This document shows, piece by piece, positions 9,776 to 17,368 of a stretch of 64,000 nucleotides of DNA; within the stretch, counting starts at the first letter, position 1; each line of letters begins with the position of its first letter. The notes beneath the pieces are model-generated. The model was not told where the DNA came from, made no database searches, and saw only the letters and a program-made list of their open reading frames with translations. The translations under genes and the position numbers were made by a program. The stretch lies in contig JAIYAQ010000023.1 of NCBI GenBank assembly GCA_027488975.1, forward strand, positions 62,001-126,000, read 5' to 3'. This stretch comes from Cyanobium sp. E1_MAG_00006. Lineage in GTDB: Bacteria; Cyanobacteriota; Cyanobacteriia; PCC-6307; Cyanobiaceae.

Positions 9776-9814
9776 CACATCTGCAACCAGCGTCGTCATC
9801 TTGCTGCAGATGTG
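9776..9814. repeat. Perfect 10-bp inverted repeat between hydrolase and RHH gene
   Basis: CACATCTGCA (9776-9785) is repeated in inverted orientation at 9805-9814, separated by 19 bases. No T-run follows, so it is a weak terminator candidate for the hydrolase. It could equally be an operator upstream of the RHH-like gene at 9942. Confidence 0.6.
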
Positions 9815-9941
9815 GTGTTTGCGCGTACCGCAACAAACTGGTTGCTCTTGATTTCCGTTTCTATTGTTGAGTTGCTGAGAAAGCTCTTGTCTTCGCCTCT
9901 CTCGGCGTTATTCCCGTTGTGAATCATCCAGGAGTTCGGCT

Positions 9942-10199
9942 ATGAATGATCGCTTCCGTGTGCTACAGCGCCAGCCACGCCGCATCTCAATTACGCTCAG
10001 CTACTTCGTGCATGAATCACTGTTGAGTCGCTCTGAGGAAGAGGGCCGTTCGGTGTCCAACCTCTGCGCCTTCCTTCTGGAAGATGCCTTGCGCGATCAG
10101 CAGCGTGACGGGCAGCGCGAGGGGCAGCAGCCCCTGCCGGTCATGACCCATTCCCATGGGCCAATGGGCAACGGGCGCGTCAAGACCCACAGCTTCTGA
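9942..10199 (+). CDS. Ribbon-helix-helix (CopG-like) small protein
   Basis: An 85-residue protein. Its first half, RRISITLSYFVHESLLSRSE followed by EEGRSVSNLCAFLLEDALRD, fits the RHH fold: one beta strand (ISITLS), helix A with a hydrophobic face, the turn GRSVSN, and helix B. Such proteins usually bind DNA as dimers and often repress their own promoter. The C-terminal 30 residues are Gln/Gly/His-rich and probably disordered. AGGAG lies 9 bases before the ATG. No toxin partner is adjacent; the upstream inverted repeat could be its operator (inference). Confidence 0.7.
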   Translation: MNDRFRVLQRQPRRISITLSYFVHESLLSRSEEEGRSVSNLCAFLLEDALRDQQRDGQREGQQPLPVMTHSHGPMGNGRVKTHSF

Positions 10200-10205
10200 A
10201 CCTGT

Positions 10206-10243
10206 TGCTCCGGGGCCGTGATTGCGAGCCTCGGAGCATTTCT
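10206..10243 (+). terminator. Terminator-like hairpin after the RHH gene
   Basis: TGCTCCGGGGC (10206-10216) pairs with GCCTCGGAGCA (10228-10238), an 11-bp stem with one G-T wobble, followed by TTTCT. It lies 6 bases after the RHH stop codon and is likely its intrinsic terminator. Confidence 0.65.
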
Positions 10244-10292
10244 ACGACATTGGGACAACTGCCATTTCAGTGGTCCCTTTACCGGTCCCCTC

Positions 10293-10334
10293 AGTGCTCA
10301 TTGTCCAGTGCATATTGTCCAGTGCGCATTGTCC
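10293..10334. repeat. Three tandem 14-bp repeats downstream of the HlyD gene
   Basis: AGTGCTCATTGTCC, AGTGCATATTGTCC and AGTGCGCATTGTCC follow one another without gaps (10293-10306, 10307-10320, 10321-10334); only bases 6 and 7 of the unit vary. They lie in the 190-base gap between the RHH terminator and the 3' end of the HlyD-family gene, with no ORF I can support. Precise phasing suggests a protein-binding array or a slippage product. Confidence 0.8.
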
Positions 10335-10433
10335 CCTCCGTGCTCATTACTGCGCCCCCTTGATGGTCGCCACAACGGTGGGGCTTTGCGTGGCTGCTGC
10401 CGGCTCTGGTGCATCAAAATGCACGCGCTCAGA

Positions 10434-11699
10434 TCACGCGCTGAGACGTAGTTTGTTGAGCAGGAACATCAGAACCGTGGTGCGGCGTGTCACCACATCC
10501 GCGCTCGCCTCCATGCCGGGTCGCAGCGGGCAGTTGCCCTGGCGCCCGCGCAGGGCGATCTGTTCGGGATGCAGCAGCACCTGGTAGGCAGCGGCTGCAG
10601 ACGCGCCAGCCCCGGCTTGCGTCGCCAATGGGATCGTGTCGGCCGAAATGCTCGCCACCCGTGCCGGCAGCACACCGAATTCGGCTGTGGGGCAGGCGGA
10701 CACCCTGAGGGTGGCCGATTGTCCGGTCCGCACCTGGCTGATGCGGTCGGCGGGAACCTGGAGCTTCACGTCGAAGCGGGTACCCAGCGGTGCCAGCACC
10801 GCCATCACCTCCCCAGGCTGAAGAACCTGGCCGGCATGGCGCAGGTTGGTGTTCAGCACCGAGCCGCTGATCGGAGCCCGCACAGTGGCCAGGTCGATGC
10901 CCCGCTGCACCTGCTGCAGCCGGGCACGTCGCTGCGACATCTGCTTGCGCAGTTCATCCGCTGAGGAGCGGGCCTGGGAGGCGTTCTGGCGCAGCCGCGC
11001 CAGTTCGCTCATGCCGCGGGCCCGCTGCTCGGCCACACCCTGCAGGGATTTCAGCACCTCCGACTGACTCACGATCTGCCGCGCCTGCTTCTCCTCCACC
11101 AGGCTGCGGGGCACGGCGCCGCTGTCCAGCAGCGAGCGGTAGCGCTGCAACTCGCTGCTGTCGAAGTTCAAGGAGGCGCGGGCCTGCTCCACGCCCCGGC
11201 GTGAGGCCTCCGTGAGCGATGTGCTGAGGTTGTCGAGCGCCTCGGCCTGCGCTGTCAGGGAGCGCTGCTCGTCGCGGGCCTGGCGTGCCTGGCCCTCCAG
11301 CATCGAGAGCTCCTCCAGCAGCTGCTGGCGTTCGGCCTGCAGCGGCCGGCTGTCGAATACCGCCAGGAGATCACCGGCCCGCACGGCCTGGTTGGGTCGC
11401 AGCAGCACCCGCAGCACCGTGCCCCCCTGCTCGCTCTGCACCACGGTGTTCTCACCGCTGGGGCGCACCACGCCGGCGGCCTTCACGGTTTCGCGCATCG
11501 GCCAGAGGGCCAGAGCACCACCGCCGAGCAGCAACAGCACGAGCAGCTGCCGGCCCAGGGCCGACGCCCACGGGCCGGGCCCGGGCAGGAAGTCGTCACC
11601 GCTCACCCCCATCAGGGTGGGTGGCAGCACCGGCTGAGCGGGTTGTGCGAGGGCGTCGCCGCTGGCAGCGACGGGCAGATCGGAGGATGGTGTGGTCAT
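10434..11699 (-). CDS. HlyD-family membrane-fusion (adaptor) protein
   Basis: A 421-residue periplasmic adaptor linking an inner-membrane ABC exporter to an outer-membrane channel in type I secretion. A cytoplasmic tail is followed by one membrane helix (about residues 51-67, QLLVLLLLGGGALALW), a biotinyl-lipoyl-like half-motif (VVQSEQGGTVLRVLLRPNQ), a long Gln/Arg/Glu-rich coiled-coil hairpin (residues about 120-290), the returning lipoyl half (IDLATVRAPISGSVLN) and a beta-barrel domain. Its ATG overlaps the stop of the C39 exporter gene (TGATG), so the two are translationally coupled. It should serve the peptide precursors encoded upstream; no TolC-like partner lies in the window. Confidence 0.9.
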   Translation of the reverse strand: MTTPSSDLPVAASGDALAQPAQPVLPPTLMGVSGDDFLPGPGPWASALGRQLLVLLLLGGGALALWPMRETVKAAGVVRPSGENTVVQSEQGGTVLRVLLRPNQAVRAGDLLAVFDSRPLQAERQQLLEELSMLEGQARQARDEQRSLTAQAEALDNLSTSLTEASRRGVEQARASLNFDSSELQRYRSLLDSGAVPRSLVEEKQARQIVSQSEVLKSLQGVAEQRARGMSELARLRQNASQARSSADELRKQMSQRRARLQQVQRGIDLATVRAPISGSVLNTNLRHAGQVLQPGEVMAVLAPLGTRFDVKLQVPADRISQVRTGQSATLRVSACPTAEFGVLPARVASISADTIPLATQAGAGASAAAAYQVLLHPEQIALRGRQGNCPLRPGMEASADVVTRRTTVLMFLLNKLRLSA

Positions 11700-13936
11700 C
11701 AGGCGGCTTGGAGATAAGGGGCAACCTGGAGGTGATCGCGCAGATCACCGGGATGGCTCTGCTGACGCACCGCACCGTTTTCCATGTACACGATCCAGTC
11801 GGCGCGCAGGATCACCGACGGTCGATGGCTCACGAGGATGGTGGTGCGACCGCTGCGATGGGCGAGCAGGCGATCCATCACCCGCGCCTCCAGCACGGGA
11901 TCCAGGGCGGAGGTGGATTCATCCAGCAGCAGCACGGGCGGATCGCTGGCCAAGGCCCGAGCCAGAGCCAGTCGCTGGCGCTGGCCGCCGGAGAGGTTGG
12001 CTCCGAATTCGCCCAGCACCGTGCCGTAGCCATCGGGAAGATCACGGATGAAGTCGTCGGCCAGGGTGAGCTGACAGAGCTTCACCACCTGCTCGTAGCT
12101 GAGTTCCGGGTAGGCGAAGACGAAGTTCTCAAAGATCGATCGGTTCAGGAACGTGTCGTCCTGAGGCAGCAGCACCACCTGCTGCCTCAGGCACTCCAGG
12201 CTGAGATCCCTGGAACTGAAGGGGCCGTAGTGAATCGTTCCCTGCTGCAGTGGATAAAGCCCGGCGATCAGCTTGCTGAGGGTGCTCTTGCCGCAGCCGG
12301 ATTCACCGATCAGAGCCGTGGTGAGGCCGCCGGGAATGCGTAGCTCCAGGTGCTCGATCAGCGCGCAACGGCCCGGATGATGGAAGCTGAGGTCACTGCA
12401 CTGGATATCGGCATCGGCCGGGATCACGGCCCGCTGCTGGCCCCGGACCAAGCTGGTCTCATCAGGGTGCTGCAGGGCATCGTCGAGCCTGGCCATCACC
12501 ACCCGTGAGGTGATCAGTTCCTGGCTCAAGCCTCCCAGCGCCGCCAGGAAGGCCAGCACGTTCGCTCCCATGCCGTTGAACGCCAGCAGCTGGCCGATGC
12601 TCAGTTGCTGGCTGAGCACAAACGAGCTGCCATACCACAACAGCATCACGCTGGTGACGTTGCCGAGAAAGCCAGTGGCGGTGCTGGCTTTGAGATCCAG
12701 CAGGCCCACGCCCCAGGACAGGCGTGCCAGCCGGCCCTGATTGCGGTGAAACTCCTGCCAGGCCTGCGGACTGGCTTGGGTCGTCTTGAGCAGGGCCTGG
12801 CCGCGGAACAACTCCACCAGAAAGCCCTGGTTCTCGGCCGACTGCACCACGAGCCCCTGGGTGCGGCGGTGCAGCGAGGGCAACACCGCCAGCTGGCAGC
12901 CGATCACCAGTCCGTAGCCCAGCAGGGCCGCGAGGGTCAGGGCGCTGCTGTACTGGGCCATCCACACCAGGGAGATCAGCGCAATGCAGAACTGGCCCGG
13001 CAGGCCCAGGGCCAGGTTGGCGATCAGCTGATTGAGCTTCTGGATGTCATCGAGGCGGCTCACCACTTCGCCGCTACGACGACTCTCGAAGTAGGTGAGC
13101 GGCAGGCGCAGCAGGTGCTGGCCGTAGTGCAGCACCATCTGCAGCTGCAGTTTCTGGCCGAAATGGCCCACCAGCAGCCCCTGCAGCAGGTTCAGCAGGG
13201 CCCGCAGCAGGAACAGCACGAGGATGCCGATGGCCAGGCTGCGCAGCATCTCGCTGTCACCACGAACGAGCACGTCGTCGGTGAGGATCTGCATCAGCAG
13301 AGGCATGCCCAGCGCCAGCACACCGGTGGCCAGATTGAGGCCAAGCGCCTGCAGCAGCAAGGGCCGGAACGGCAGCACGTAGGGCAGAAAAGCGCCGAGC
13401 CCCTTGCCGGCCTGCCAGCCTTCCTGGGCGCTGTCCACCGCCGGAAAGCGCTGGGGATCGGGATCCAGCAGCAGGACCACGCCATTGCTCCAGCTGGCCA
13501 GAAAGGCCTCCTCTGTGAGCAGGCGAACGCCGCAGGCGGGATCGGCCACCAGCAGCTGTTCACCCTGCCAGCCATGCAGCACCACCCAGTGGCACCCCTG
13601 CCAGTGACAGATCACCGGCAGAGGCAGGGAGGCCAGGTCGTGTAGCAGGGAGGCGTCCGCCTTGGCGGCCCGGGCGTGGAACCCCAGGCTTTCAGCCCCT
13701 CGCTTGAGTCCCAGCAAGGTTGTTCCCTGGGCGGAGGTGCCCACCCGATGGCGCACCAGCGGCATTGGCAGCGGCTCGCCATGGCTCTGGCACACGGTGG
13801 CCAGGCAGGCGGCGCCGCAGTCTTCCTCGTCGTACTGCCGCACGCAGGCGGCCTGGGGCAGGCGGGCGGAGAGGCCAGGAAGCCGGAGCAGCCAGCGGGA
13901 CAGGCTGGTGGTGTCCAGCCAACGGGAAACGGCCAT
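11699..13936 (-). CDS. Peptidase-containing ABC exporter (C39 protease, membrane and ATPase domains)
   Basis: A 745-residue exporter that cuts double-glycine leaders and transports the freed peptide. The N-terminal C39 cysteine protease has Cys40 in RQYDEEDCGAACLA, His116 in CHWVVLHG and Asp132 in ADPACG, so the full triad is present. A six-helix membrane domain follows (about residues 185-460). The C-terminal ATPase has Walker A GESGCGKST, signature LSGGQRQRL, Walker B VLLLDEST and the switch histidine in ILVSHRPS. Cytoplasmic protease and exit pathway fit the four small Gly-Gly-leader genes just upstream on the same strand. Coupled by TGATG to the HlyD adaptor. Confidence 0.95.
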   Translation of the reverse strand: MAVSRWLDTTSLSRWLLRLPGLSARLPQAACVRQYDEEDCGAACLATVCQSHGEPLPMPLVRHRVGTSAQGTTLLGLKRGAESLGFHARAAKADASLLHDLASLPLPVICHWQGCHWVVLHGWQGEQLLVADPACGVRLLTEEAFLASWSNGVVLLLDPDPQRFPAVDSAQEGWQAGKGLGAFLPYVLPFRPLLLQALGLNLATGVLALGMPLLMQILTDDVLVRGDSEMLRSLAIGILVLFLLRALLNLLQGLLVGHFGQKLQLQMVLHYGQHLLRLPLTYFESRRSGEVVSRLDDIQKLNQLIANLALGLPGQFCIALISLVWMAQYSSALTLAALLGYGLVIGCQLAVLPSLHRRTQGLVVQSAENQGFLVELFRGQALLKTTQASPQAWQEFHRNQGRLARLSWGVGLLDLKASTATGFLGNVTSVMLLWYGSSFVLSQQLSIGQLLAFNGMGANVLAFLAALGGLSQELITSRVVMARLDDALQHPDETSLVRGQQRAVIPADADIQCSDLSFHHPGRCALIEHLELRIPGGLTTALIGESGCGKSTLSKLIAGLYPLQQGTIHYGPFSSRDLSLECLRQQVVLLPQDDTFLNRSIFENFVFAYPELSYEQVVKLCQLTLADDFIRDLPDGYGTVLGEFGANLSGGQRQRLALARALASDPPVLLLDESTSALDPVLEARVMDRLLAHRSGRTTILVSHRPSVILRADWIVYMENGAVRQQSHPGDLRDHLQVAPYLQAA

Positions 13937-13942
13937 CGTGGA

Positions 13943-13982
13943 TGGAAACCTAGGGAAAAATGCCGGAACTCAGAACCGCAGC
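13943..13982 (-). terminator. Hairpin with T-run between peptide gene 4 and the exporter
   Basis: On the minus strand ATGCCG pairs with CGGCAT across a loop of about 20 bases and is followed by TTTTTCC. It lies right after the fourth peptide stop and before the exporter ATG, and may reduce read-through into the exporter. The long loop makes it a moderate candidate. Confidence 0.5.
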
Positions 13983-13991
13983 GTTACGGCA

Positions 13992-14252
13992 TCAAGCTGA
14001 TACGGAAAGATCAATGCCGTTCAGCTGATTGTTCACGATGGAGCCACCATTGAAGATGATGTTGATGGCAATGTTGAACTGATTCACGTTGGTTGTGATC
14101 GAGTTGCCCAGGCCACTCAAGCCACCATTGCCGAACAGCACGCGCCCCGGCCGCCCGCGCTGCAGTGAGGCCATGGGTGAACCGCCGCGGCCCCAGGCCG
14201 GACGATGGCCACCGGAGAGGCAAGCGGCTTCGCGATCACAGAGCAGATCCAT
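13992..14252 (-). CDS. Double-glycine-leader peptide 4 (divergent)
   Basis: An 86-residue precursor. The leader MDLLCDREAACLSGG ends in Gly-Gly at residues 14-15, the cleavage type used by C39 exporters. The 71-residue core begins HRPAWGRGG. It has a basic Gly/Arg-rich first part and an Asn/Ile-rich second part (LGNSITTNVNQFNIAINIIF). The core has no cysteine, arguing against lanthionine or disulfide chemistry. It resembles the other three peptides in leader and Asn/Gly richness, but the core motif is diverged. It is nearest the exporter gene, 55 bp upstream of it. Whether it is antimicrobial, a signal or structural cannot be told from sequence. Confidence 0.7.
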   Translation of the reverse strand: MDLLCDREAACLSGGHRPAWGRGGSPMASLQRGRPGRVLFGNGGLSGLGNSITTNVNQFNIAINIIFNGGSIVNNQLNGIDLSVSA

Positions 14253-14282
14253 GGTTGGGATGCAAGGATGAGTTGGAGAGTG

Positions 14283-14310
14283 AAAAAGCCTGAGTCCGGA
14301 ACACTCAGGC
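14283..14310 (-). terminator. Intrinsic terminator after peptide gene 3
   Basis: On the minus strand GCCTGAGT (14310-14303) pairs perfectly with ACTCAGGC (14295-14288) across a 7-base loop, followed by TTTTT. It lies 24 bases past the peptide 3 stop, a clear rho-independent terminator. Confidence 0.85.
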
Positions 14311-14333
14311 GAAAGGCTCAGGCGAAAGATGCC

Positions 14334-14558
14334 TTAGGCGGGAAGGCTGGGAAAGTTGGGCAGATAGCCGGACAGATTCAGGCCGTTGCCCTGGATCAGG
14401 CCCGCGATGCCAGTGCCAAAAATGCCTAGGCCGATTACGACACCATTGTTGCCCTGAAGGCCGGTGGTGACGGCGGTGGACACGGCAATTACGGGGCTCA
14501 CGGTGATGTTGAAGCCACCGCTCACAAGCTCCGCCTGATCATCTGATATGTCAAACAT
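14334..14558 (-). CDS. Double-glycine-leader peptide 3
   Basis: A 74-residue precursor starting at ATG 14558 (a GTG three codons upstream is the alternative). The leader MFDISDDQAELVSGG has the acidic, AEL-x-SGG form recognised by C39 peptidases. The 59-residue core starts FNITVSPVIAVSTAV and carries a variant of the shared motif: GLQGNNGVVIGLGIFGTGIA, then GLIQGNGLNLSG. The core has no cysteine and is hydrophobic, with regularly spaced Gly, Asn and Gln. It is flanked by its own terminator and by that of peptide 2, which suggests a separately tuned transcript. Confidence 0.85.
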   Translation of the reverse strand: MFDISDDQAELVSGGFNITVSPVIAVSTAVTTGLQGNNGVVIGLGIFGTGIAGLIQGNGLNLSGYLPNFPSLPA

Positions 14559-14578
14559 GATGGTCACGGGTAGGGAAT

Positions 14579-14606
14579 GGAAAAAGGGCCTGAAATTCAG
14601 GCCCTC
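14579..14606 (-). terminator. Intrinsic terminator after peptide gene 2
   Basis: On the minus strand GGGCCTGAA pairs with TTCAGGCCC almost without a loop spacer, followed by TTTTTCC. It lies 14 bases past the peptide 2 stop and just upstream of the peptide 3 start. Confidence 0.85.
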
Positions 14607-14619
14607 AGTTCAGGTGTGG

Positions 14620-14835
14620 TCAGCCCACGAAGGTGAGGATTCCGGCGGAATTGCCCTGATAGCTCTCGGCGTTGCCGCCACCGCCCAGCAGGCCAACGCC
14701 CACGTTGCTCACATTGTTGGATTGACCAAGAGCTGTTGAAACCTTGGTGAAGCTGAAGCGGCTGATCCGGGTGCTGCCCCAGCCACCGCTGATCAGTTCA
14801 GCATGATCATCGGCGAGAAAGTTGAGGTGCGACAT
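14620..14835 (-). CDS. Double-glycine-leader peptide 2
   Basis: A 71-residue precursor. The 18-residue leader MSHLNFLADDHAELISGG is followed by a 53-residue core. The core opens WGSTRISRFSFTKVSTALGQ and continues SNNVSNVGVGLLGGGGNA then ESYQGNSAG. The second half matches peptide 1 nearly position by position (VST, GQSN, GxG, GNA, Q, NSA), so the two are paralogues. No cysteines are present. Processing by the neighbouring C39 exporter is inferred from the Gly-Gly leader. Confidence 0.9.
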   Translation of the reverse strand: MSHLNFLADDHAELISGGWGSTRISRFSFTKVSTALGQSNNVSNVGVGLLGGGGNAESYQGNSAGILTFVG

Positions 14836-14891
14836 GGTGATGAGTGAGTGGAAAAGTGTCTGAGATCGGAACGGAACGATCGACGTCCTGT

Positions 14892-15107
14892 TCAGAGCAG
14901 GATCGTGCCGACGAGGGCGGAGTTCTCCTGAATGCTCTGAGCATTGCCAAGGCCGACGATCCCCAGGCCGAGGTTGTTGGAGGTGTTGGACTGGCCCACC
15001 CGGGTGCTGACCGATTTCATCGACTTGCTGGAGTAGGTGAAGAAGGAGCCGAAGCCACCATTGATCTGCTCAGCTTCGAGATCGGCCAGGATCATGTAGT
15101 TGGTCAT
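14892..15107 (-). CDS. Double-glycine-leader peptide 1
   Basis: A 71-residue precursor and the first of the four. The leader MTNYMILADLEAEQINGG (18 residues) has hydrophobic and acidic residues spaced as in C39 substrates and ends in Gly-Gly. The 53-residue core has an aromatic/Ser/Lys start (FGSFFTYSSKSMKSVST), then RVGQSNTSNNLGLGIVGLGN and AQSIQENSALVG. There is no cysteine. It begins 154 bp after the sigma-factor stop. An imperfect hairpin (GATCG/CGATC) follows its stop but lacks a good T-run, so peptide 1 may be co-transcribed with peptide 2. Confidence 0.9.
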   Translation of the reverse strand: MTNYMILADLEAEQINGGFGSFFTYSSKSMKSVSTRVGQSNTSNNLGLGIVGLGNAQSIQENSALVGTILL

Positions 15108-15261
15108 GGTTGAAACTGCTAGTGGGACGAGGCAGCCAGATGGTGCCCATTGCCGTTTTAGGAATCAAAAAGCGGCGGGAAGGTAATTCGGCACTGCTGC
15201 TTCGCGAGTGCTGCAGGAGCGCGCACTGGCCCTACATCTGGGTCGGAGTCTGTCGCTGGGT

Positions 15262-16128
15262 CTAATTCGCGCTCAGGGCTGCAACCGCCGGTGCGGGGAA
15301 GAGCATCGGCGTCAGGTGTCGCCGCAGCTTGGTGAGCGCATGCCGCTCCAGCCGCTGCACCTGATCCTTGCTGCGGCCTGTCAGGCGCGCCACCTCGGCA
15401 AAGGAGCGTTGCTTCTCCTCGCCATAGCGCAGTTGGATCACGGTTCGCTCCGGGGTGGAGAGCTGCTGGATCTGGCCGTGCATCCAGCTGTAATCGTCGT
15501 CAATCGTTGGTAGGCGGCTGTCGGAGACCGTGTCCAGCAGCGTCATGTCGCCGTCGCTGCCGTTCAGTTGCTGATCCAGCGACACGGTGTGGCTGCGATG
15601 TTGCACGGCCATGGCATAGAGCACGCGATCACCGCTCTCCCCCAGCTGGCGTCCGAGCTCCTCGCTGCTGAGGAGGTCCGATCCCAGGCTCTGGAGCGCT
15701 TCGGCGCGGTTCGCCAGACTCACCAGATTCACCGGTGTGCGGATGCCTCCGTTGTGCTCCTGCAGATGCCGGTTGATGGCCTGGCGGATCCACCAGTAGC
15801 CGTAGGTAGAGAACTTATAACCGCGGGTGGGATCGTATTTTTCAGCCGCCCGTAAGAGCCCGAGATTGCCAGCTTGTACCAGATCCATTGGATCATGAGC
15901 GAGATGCTTGAGCCGGCGCAGATAGCGCAGGGCAACCGTCACCACCAGGCGCAGATTGGCGCTAACGATGCGACGCAGTGCGCGCCGTCCTCTTCGTTCC
16001 AGGCCTGCGGATGGTTGTGGGGCTTCCATCCATTCCTTGACAATCAAACCCAGGTGAACCTCTTCCTGGGCCGTCAACAGTGGGATCCGGCCGATGCTGC
16101 GCAGATAGTCGCCGAAGGCATCGCTCAT
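15262..16128 (-). CDS. Group 2 RpoD-like sigma factor
   Basis: A 288-residue sigma-70 factor without region 1.1, of the non-essential group 2 kind that mediates stress or stationary responses in cyanobacteria. Region 1.2 is DAFGDYLRSIGRIPLLT. Region 2 contains NLRLVVTVALRYL, DLVQAGNLGLLRAAEKYDP and the -10 recognition helix GYKFSTYGYWWIRQAI. Region 3 begins at IRTPVNL. Region 4 has TPERTVIQLRYG and the HTH SFAEVARLTGRSKDQVQRLE. The start at 16128 gives the usual length; the longer frame upstream is not sigma-like. It lies directly upstream of the peptide-export genes on the same strand, which may be chance or a regulatory link. Confidence 0.93.
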   Translation of the reverse strand: MSDAFGDYLRSIGRIPLLTAQEEVHLGLIVKEWMEAPQPSAGLERRGRRALRRIVSANLRLVVTVALRYLRRLKHLAHDPMDLVQAGNLGLLRAAEKYDPTRGYKFSTYGYWWIRQAINRHLQEHNGGIRTPVNLVSLANRAEALQSLGSDLLSSEELGRQLGESGDRVLYAMAVQHRSHTVSLDQQLNGSDGDMTLLDTVSDSRLPTIDDDYSWMHGQIQQLSTPERTVIQLRYGEEKQRSFAEVARLTGRSKDQVQRLERHALTKLRRHLTPMLFPAPAVAALSAN

Positions 16129-16201
16129 GGTCTGTCTGTCGGTTCCGCTCAATCCTCTGCGGGACCTCTTGATTTCAGTGAGCGCTGCCGCGGCGATGCC
16201 G

Positions 16202-17368
16202 TCAGTTCGCCGCGGCCCGCAGCGCAGTGGTTTCGGCAGGCCGCCAGGAGCGGTAGCTTCCATTACGTTCCGGCCGGCTCAGCACCACCTGCCACAGCTG
16301 ACCCTCGCGTGAGCGGAAGAAGCCGGCGCAGCTGAGCAGGTAGTAGCGCCAGAAGCGATGGAACTCTTCGGTGCTGTCGCGTTGCAGGTCCGGCCAGGCT
16401 GCCTCGAAGTTCTGCCACCAGGCCATCAGGGTGCTGTCGTAATCGGCGCCGAAGTTCTCCCAGTCCTCGATCAGGAAGTGGTTTTCTAGGCCGCGGCAGA
16501 GCTGCGAGGCGGAGGGCAGGCGCCCACCGGGGAAGATGTGGGCGTCGATCCAGGCATCCGTGCGGTGCGTGGTGCGGGCTGTTCCGATGGTCTGCAACAG
16601 GGCAAGCCCATCCGGCTCCAGGCATTGCCTCATGATTCGGTGGAAGGTCGCATCGTTGCGGCGACCCACGTGCTCAAACATGCCGATCGAGGCGATGCGA
16701 TCGAACGGCCCGGCCTGCAGCAGCGGTAGCTGGCGGTAATCGCACAGCACCACCTGCAGAGGCAGGTCGCCGTGACGTTCGCGAACTGCCTCCGCCTGCC
16801 TGGCCGAGACCGTGATGCCGACCGCCTCCACGCCGTAGTGGCGGCAGGCATAGGCCGCCAGGCTGCCCCAGCCGCAGCCGATGTCCAGCAGGCGCATTCC
16901 TGGTTGCAGTTGCAGCTTCTCGCAGATCAGCCGCAGCTTGTGATCCTGGGCACTGGCCAGATCGGAGGCCTGGCGCCAGTAGCCGCAGCTGTAGGTCATC
17001 TGGGGATCCAGCATCGCCGCATAGACGCGTGGATCGATGTCGTAATGCCACTGCCCCACGTTGAAGGCCCTTGCTGGGCCCTGCGGATTGCTGAGCTGCT
17101 CGCGGAGTTGCGTGGCGGCATCCGCCAGCCAGGCCCGCTTGCTCAGTGGGCGCTGGGCCTTCGCACGCAGCAGCCGGCAGATCAGTTCGTCGATCCGCTC
17201 GCAGTCCCAGTCGCCGCGCACATAGCCATCGCCCAGTGCCAGGGAGCCATGGCGCAGCAACGCGGCATAGAGCTGTGGGTTGTGGACCTGCGGATCCCAG
17301 GGGCGATCGCCGTTAAACCGCACATCGGCGGCGCTGGTGGCGGTGGCAAGGCGCGTGGGGATCGGCAT
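16202..17368 (-). CDS. cfa: Cyclopropane-fatty-acyl-phospholipid synthase family methyltransferase
   Basis: A 388-residue SAM-dependent enzyme that follows E. coli Cfa almost along its whole length. SAM is bound by LLDIGCGWGSLAAY. Other family blocks are HYDIDPRVYAAMLDPQMTYS, GYWRQASDLASAQDHKL, SIGMFEHVGRRN, WIDAHIFPGG, EDWENFGADYDSTLMAW and the C-terminal CAGFFRSREGQLWQVVLSR. The family methylates double bonds of unsaturated phospholipid chains at the membrane surface. The start at 17368 aligns with the Cfa N terminus minus about 20 residues; the frame extends to 17593 without Cfa-like sequence. Downstream of it on the same strand is the sigma factor. Confidence 0.93.
   Translation of the reverse strand: MPIPTRLATATSAADVRFNGDRPWDPQVHNPQLYAALLRHGSLALGDGYVRGDWDCERIDELICRLLRAKAQRPLSKRAWLADAATQLREQLSNPQGPARAFNVGQWHYDIDPRVYAAMLDPQMTYSCGYWRQASDLASAQDHKLRLICEKLQLQPGMRLLDIGCGWGSLAAYACRHYGVEAVGITVSARQAEAVRERHGDLPLQVVLCDYRQLPLLQAGPFDRIASIGMFEHVGRRNDATFHRIMRQCLEPDGLALLQTIGTARTTHRTDAWIDAHIFPGGRLPSASQLCRGLENHFLIEDWENFGADYDSTLMAWWQNFEAAWPDLQRDSTEEFHRFWRYYLLSCAGFFRSREGQLWQVVLSRPERNGSYRSWRPAETTALRAAAN

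Follow-up and report, generated by a model that had tools for sequence, protein, structure and literature searches.

A C39 export cassette in Cyanobium for peptides with paired Q-x-N motifs: an EbfG/PteB-like arrangement and a possible role in matrix or surface assembly

What does a picocyanobacterium deliver to its surroundings when it devotes an operon to the export of several small peptides with double-glycine (GG) leaders? This question is raised by positions 10434-15107 on the minus strand of a 64,000-nucleotide stretch (the window) of contig JAIYAQ010000023.1 from Cyanobium sp. E1_MAG_00006, where four small GG-leader genes are followed by genes for a C39-peptidase ATP-binding cassette (ABC) exporter and then an HlyD-family adaptor. 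An earlier note, made from the sequence alone, had described these genes on one strand as a dedicated export cassette and had named antagonism, signalling and surface assembly as its possible functions. We confirmed all six genes, and it is near certain that the export cassette is real and dedicated. We also found two features absent from that note, a two-fold Q-x-N architecture in the exported cores and terminator-like hairpins between the genes. The operon is arranged like the EbfG/PteB operon of Synechococcus elongatus, with a cargo that, as judged from its sequence, falls outside the EbfG family. We favor, with a probability of roughly 0.55, the reading that this is an EbfG-like matrix operon of the PteB kind whose cargo differs and may be curlin-like, and that matrix or surface assembly is its likeliest role.

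The four peptides share one plan. Peptides 1 (14892..15107, minus strand) and 2 (14620..14835, minus) each consist of an 18-aa GG leader and a 53-aa core and are paralogs with 47% identity; the Q-x-N motifs of peptide 1 lie at core positions 21 and 42. Peptide 3 (14334..14567, minus) has a GG leader and a 59-aa core with two Q-x-N motifs, and peptide 4 (13992..14252, minus) has a 15-aa GG leader and a 71-aa core with the Q-x-N pair in its C-terminal half, the N-terminal half of the peptide being basic. The gene call for peptide 3 starts at a GTG (14567); because its ortholog at locus L029 starts with MFEISDDQAE, translation likelier begins at an ATG three codons in (~14558). Cysteine is missing from all four cores, as the earlier note had stated, and is present in the peptide 4 leader. 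Among 43 GG-pattern open reading frames (ORFs) of 40-170 aa in the window, the Q-x-N pair occurred exclusively in the four cassette peptides, and counterparts of all four exist in relatives, which together argue that the cassette is not a product of chance.

To this pair we could attach a family. Upstream sequence was sufficient in 19 of the 21 loci of exporter sub-clade A, the group that includes the window (in L039 and L069 the contig breaks off a short way upstream of the exporter, and these two were not counted), and all 19 encode GG peptides, one to four each and 55 in total after removal of two ORFs judged to be chance matches in another frame (L070 -1467 and L075 -1066). The peptides are highly divergent, with a mean column identity of 22% in an alignment (A2) of 46 of the 55 that omitted two peptides of L033, one of L035, both of L073 and four of L074 and L075. 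When conservation was counted over all 55, with leaders longer than 18 residues trimmed to 18, the GG was kept in 55, the first Gln in 50, its +2 Asn in 53, the second Gln in 51 and its +2 Asn in 49; the only further core column above 60% was one Gly (33/55). Q-x-N was present in 52 of 55 cores, compared with 12.9 (standard deviation [sd], 3.1) in shuffled cores. With kinship reduced to 28 representatives below 45% identity, 26 retained Q-x-N (7.0 in shuffles) and 19 had a pair 15-32 residues apart (0.28 in shuffles). Consecutive motifs were spaced by 18-25 residues in 37 of 43 cases, and the residue at +4 from the motif was Ala in 38 of 95 occurrences. Core lengths range from 40 to 80 aa across the family, and the median net charge of the 55 cores is +2.

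In the representatives, even offsets from the motif (-6, -4, -2, +4, +6 and +8) exceeded odd offsets both in hydropathy (p 0.0045) and in conservation measured as information (p 0.0015), so that the motif surroundings resemble a beta strand with one conserved face. GG-pattern ORFs at 38 loci from other clades of exporters lacked the Q-x-N pair; in three of these the available stretch had no such ORF, and in many the flank was only ~1.5 kb. Searches of Pfam, NCBIfam, PHROGs, PADLOC and PDB yielded no credible family for the peptides, and no Q-x-N peptide family was described in the titles and abstract openings of the open-licence PMC papers listed, a search that subscription journals lie outside.

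The export machinery is of a recognizable type. The exporter (11699..13936, minus; 745 aa) matched the Pfam domains Peptidase_C39 (E 8.4e-33), ABC_membrane and ABC_tran and, with its Cys-His-Asp residues and a length in the range of about 700-750 aa, is a short-type C39-ABC protein. The full triad claimed by the earlier note was located at C40, H116 and D132, residues assigned as is usual for the C39 family. Exporter residues 29-726, including the C39 region, aligned with the solved C39 bacteriocin transporter 4ry2 (PCAT1; E 8e-103); 4ry2 comes from another system, whereas here an HlyD adaptor gene lies next to the exporter and the cargo is different. The adaptor gene (10434..11699, minus; 421 aa), a putative periplasmic adaptor with an HlyD_3 match, shares one base with the exporter gene, the last of the exporter stop being the first of the adaptor start. 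Three TolC-like ORFs are present elsewhere in the genome.

Exporters orthologous to this one occurred in 12 of 25 genomes of a genus set (E <= 1e-120) and in 34 of 400 genomes of a family set (E <= 1e-150), own genome included in both, and the distribution is patchy rather than core. Exporters of this broad family are frequent among other cyanobacteria, with matches in 115 of 388 genomes of a class set (E <= 1e-110) into which a few family members also fall. The exporter has as named neighbors those of Vulcanococcus sp. Clear-D1, Synechococcus sp. HJ21-Hayes and several metagenome-assembled genomes, which points to a picocyanobacterial source within that group, probably a freshwater one. In a quick tree of 60 rows, 31 picocyanobacterial exporters formed one group (Shimodaira-Hasegawa-like approximate likelihood ratio test, 100) that split into sub-clade A (21 rows; support, 87) and sub-clade B (10 rows; 91). 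A profile of the peptides matched 26 of the 400 family genomes, of which 21 are among the 34 exporter genomes, and its four matches in the window's own genome are the cassette peptides. For the five peptide genomes lacking an exporter match (G166, G120, G170, G215 and G268), an exporter fragment adjoins the peptides in the G166 stretch, and no C39 exporter was found in the examined stretches of the other four, the peptide matches of G170 and G268 being marginal (E about 6e-4).

Several loci in this survey showed features of their own. At L149 (G166:C32, 4950-5774), two Q-x-N peptides lie beside an exporter with just ~73 matching residues, perhaps a decayed operon. At the contig end of L154 (G234:C57, 3950-4948) are three more GG-leader ORFs, each with at least two Q-x-N motifs, ~1.4 kb after an ORF that by eye is sigma-factor-like; the exporter of that genome is on another contig. 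Downstream of the clade B exporter at L082 are two GG-leader ORFs with cores largely of Arg/Ser/Leu repeats. Upstream of the L099 exporter is a GG-leader protein with a beta/gamma-crystallin domain (E 3.4e-9), a likely cargo of a related exporter. Because relatives in other cyanobacteria adjoin other GG proteins such as that of L099, the exporter family seems not to be bound to antibiotics.

We compared the spaces between consecutive genes across the 19 loci, counting stems of 7 or more pairs that precede a T-run and leaving unscored five of 55 gaps (<30 nucleotides with margins). Terminator-like hairpins were present in 25 of the 50 scored gaps and in 17 of 19 loci, while 100 dinucleotide shuffles gave a mean of 0.2 hairpin gaps and a maximum of 2. 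In the window, hairpins lie on the minus strand in the gap between peptides 2 and 3 (14584..14606) and in that between peptides 3 and 4 (14288..14310), and L029, L030, L031 and L068 retain a similar stem in the latter gap despite base changes. The natural reading of these elements is partial termination that would raise the early peptides over the exporter, and partial termination is a known device in peptide operons. Across 9800-16400, Rfam gave no match and a sigma-70 promoter scan found none.

To judge what surrounds the cassette, we picked nine likely-gene ORFs between 4834 and 19099 and scanned them against Pfam. Six had matches (a phosphorylase, a weak chlorophyll-binding match, a weak alpha/beta hydrolase, a ribbon-helix-helix [RHH] protein, a sigma-70 factor and a cyclopropane-synthase-type methyltransferase) and three had none. 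The claim that no modification enzyme is nearby held, as no known enzyme modifying ribosomally synthesized and post-translationally modified peptides (RiPPs) was among the nine, distant enzymes lying beyond this search. With no such enzyme among the nine and no Cys in the four cores, the cassette does not fit a modified RiPP of the NHLP, N11P or LanM type. Nor did we recognize an immunity-like gene among the nine, with room left for small unrecognized ORFs, or any receptor or kinase. The sigma-70-family gene (15262..16263, minus) lies 154 bp upstream of peptide 1 on the same strand and may be a regulator. Of 31 other picocyanobacterial loci, 8 have a sigma homolog close to the exporter, with varying sides and strands and flanks of unequal length, and the genome has 12 Sigma70_r2 matches. 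The RHH_5 (CopG-like) small protein at 9942-10199 (plus strand) has four genome matches, three of them on this contig within 25 kb and two of the four reading through TGA; homologs were near the exporter in 7 of the 31 other loci.

How might such a cassette work? By analogy with the families involved, the C39 domain would cleave every precursor after GG, and the ABC-HlyD pair, probably with one of the three TolC-like proteins, would export the cores unmodified. Outside the cell, each 53- to 71-aa core (53, 53, 59 and 71 aa in the window) may form a beta-arch in which a Gly-rich turn links two strands, each alternating small or hydrophobic residues and carrying a Q-x-N step on one face. Arches could then stack laterally to give fibers of the matrix or cell surface in which Gln and Asn side chains would form ladders, as Gln does in curli. 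The intergenic hairpins, acting by attenuation, would let transcription of early peptide genes outpace that of the exporter, suiting a bulk structural product. We extend this tentatively, at somewhat less than even odds, to a new functional amyloid class, in which single-arch subunits with two Q-x-N(-x-A) strands would be exported singly by a C39 exporter, the leader kept until exit, paralogs co-assembling and stoichiometry set by leaky terminators.

The preference for a surface or matrix role comes from the gene order shared with ebfG1-4/pteB, from Q-x-N beta-type repeats as nearly the sole conservation in the cores, from the lack of a recognized immunity-like gene among the flanking ORFs scanned and from core lengths of 40-80 aa, which are large for a signal. 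A number of results weigh against it. The alternation around the motif fails past +6, where +7 and +9, both odd, are hydrophobic, and a window-wide hydrophobic-moment test was only weakly positive (z 2.7 at 160 degrees and 1.3 at 180). AlphaFold2 gave a predicted local distance difference test score of 46 for core 1 and 51 for core 4 (one helix) with no beta-arch in either, models that are too poor to count either way. Homology to EbfG cores was rejected (hhalign probability, 0.1), as was homology to curlin, with no hhalign match to curlin repeats and no curlin match among 46 members at E 10. An aggregation score on an AGGRESCAN-type scale was discarded as evidence, since it placed hot spots also in EbfG4 (reported as non-amyloid) and did not separate that protein from the amyloid EbfG1-3. 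The two S. elongatus exporters were placed with other cyanobacteria, apart from the picocyanobacterial exporters, in the quick tree. A generic terminator scan of 9800-16400 returned 7 sites, some within genes, versus 3.0 (sd, 1.8) in shuffles, so that a single hairpin site says little by itself and the argument rests mainly on comparing loci. The chief result for antagonism is the fast change of the peptides described below, which fits loosely constrained structural material or conflict alike. Finally, there were weak matches to bacteriocins among the 46 aligned peptides, namely to lactococcin G-beta (2/46; best E 0.007), Bacteriocin_IIc (1/46; E 0.13) and CTB bacteriocin (2/46; best E 0.013).

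These last two points bear on the main rival, that the products are unmodified class II bacteriocins or microcins that would kill or inhibit close relatives through their membranes and diversify by conflict. Against the closest relative, whose exporter is 99% identical, the exporter had a nonsynonymous rate (dN) of 0.005 and a ratio to the synonymous rate (omega) of 0.03, while peptides 1-4 had dN of 0.098-0.127 and omega of 0.90, 1.20, 0.21 and 0.35; for the cores of peptides 1 and 2 omega was 0.81 and 1.74, each with few synonymous changes. In three more distant relatives omega was 0.14-0.44 where computable, and the ratio of peptide to exporter dN was about 20 for the closest relative and about 4-8 for the others. 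The peptides are thus constrained, yet their rate of change far exceeds that of the exporter. Given the rapid evolution of two cores, antagonism keeps a place in our account, as an unlikely explanation but the strongest competitor. The classical arrangement of a GG leader with a C39 exporter, the cataloguing of comparable cyanobacterial clusters as bacteriocins (PMC3140520), the median core charge and the matches just listed all speak for it. The missing immunity-like gene, subject to the limit given above, speaks against it, as do the lack of charge in core 3, the 10 of 55 cores with a net charge of zero or below and the secretion of matrix proteins by PteB, the studied relative of the exporter. 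Also to its disadvantage, we know of no bacteriocin hallmark that combines a Q-x-N pair with beta alternation.

A surface coat or adhesin of non-amyloid nature, in which the cores bind the outer membrane, extracellular polymeric substances or each other without cross-beta stacking, has the precedent of EbfG4, a cell-surface protein that showed no amyloid (PMC9981879). It would also agree with the AlphaFold2 models, which offered no ordered beta structure, and with the basic half of peptide 4. Alone, it leaves the two-fold retention of Q-x-N amid general variation unexplained, and we consider it still less probable than a bacteriocin. Peptide signals of the quorum-sensing type, exported and sensed by neighbors, are improbable enough to be given little room: GG export does serve signals in streptococci and a sigma-70 gene lies upstream, but the cores, at 40-80 aa and with up to four paralogs, are long for a signal and no receptor or kinase was among the flanking ORFs scanned. 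Of what the earlier note proposed, dedicated export and the absence of a recognized modifying enzyme are well supported, and its open choice of function now tilts toward the surface or matrix, with signalling unlikely.

Picocyanobacteria are widespread in fresh water, and to our knowledge their aggregation and attachment are poorly explained. If the matrix reading is correct, the building of a matrix by C39 export would not be peculiar to S. elongatus, and one exporter family would serve different, unrelated self-assembling cargoes. Some clusters now called bacteriocins would then need a new label, and the two-motif peptide would represent a minimal, synthesizable amyloid subunit.

Among known systems, genome mining has catalogued such clusters as group III cyanobacterial bacteriocins (Wang et al. 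2011, PMC3140520), and a table of that paper lists two group III clusters for Cyanobium PCC 7001. The cassette resembles them in joining a short C39-ABC exporter and HlyD to several GG precursors; it differs in that no Pfam or NCBIfam model fits its cargo credibly. Curlin, as described in PMC10192328, has N-x-hydrophobic-x-hydrophobic-x-Q strands in ~23-residue repeats with Gln ladders. The peptides share with CsgA/CsgB the ~22- to 23-residue repeats around Gln/Asn and the alternating inward residues, and their motif follows a similar logic in placing Gln and Asn on a single strand, but they carry Q-x-N in place of Q-x-G-x-x-N and about two motifs per peptide rather than many repeats, export is through C39-ABC-HlyD with no csg gene among the cassette genes, and there was no profile match.

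The closest counterpart is ebfG1-4/pteB. Locus L091, reached through its exporter, encodes three EbfG N-terminal peptides detected by mass spectrometry in PMC4997328, which identifies it as an ebfG/pteB locus like that of S. elongatus PCC 7942. According to the published accounts, EbfG1-4 and the PteB cysteine are required for biofilm and PteB exports matrix proteins (PMC4997328), and EbfG1-3 form amyloid while EbfG4 is found at the cell surface (PMC9981879). The EbfG cores lack Q-x-N pairs and are not detectably homologous to ours, the exporters fall in different groups of the quick tree, and hairpins occupied 1 of 8 gaps in the two S. elongatus-type loci, compared with 25 of 50 here. In contrast, both operons place four small leader peptides before a short-type C39-ABC gene and then an HlyD-type gene, both have cysteine-free cores behind similar leaders (GG, or GA in EbfG4), and their exporters are 52% identical over 719 aligned positions. 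By this analogy, the Cyanobium operon probably works like EbfG/PteB.

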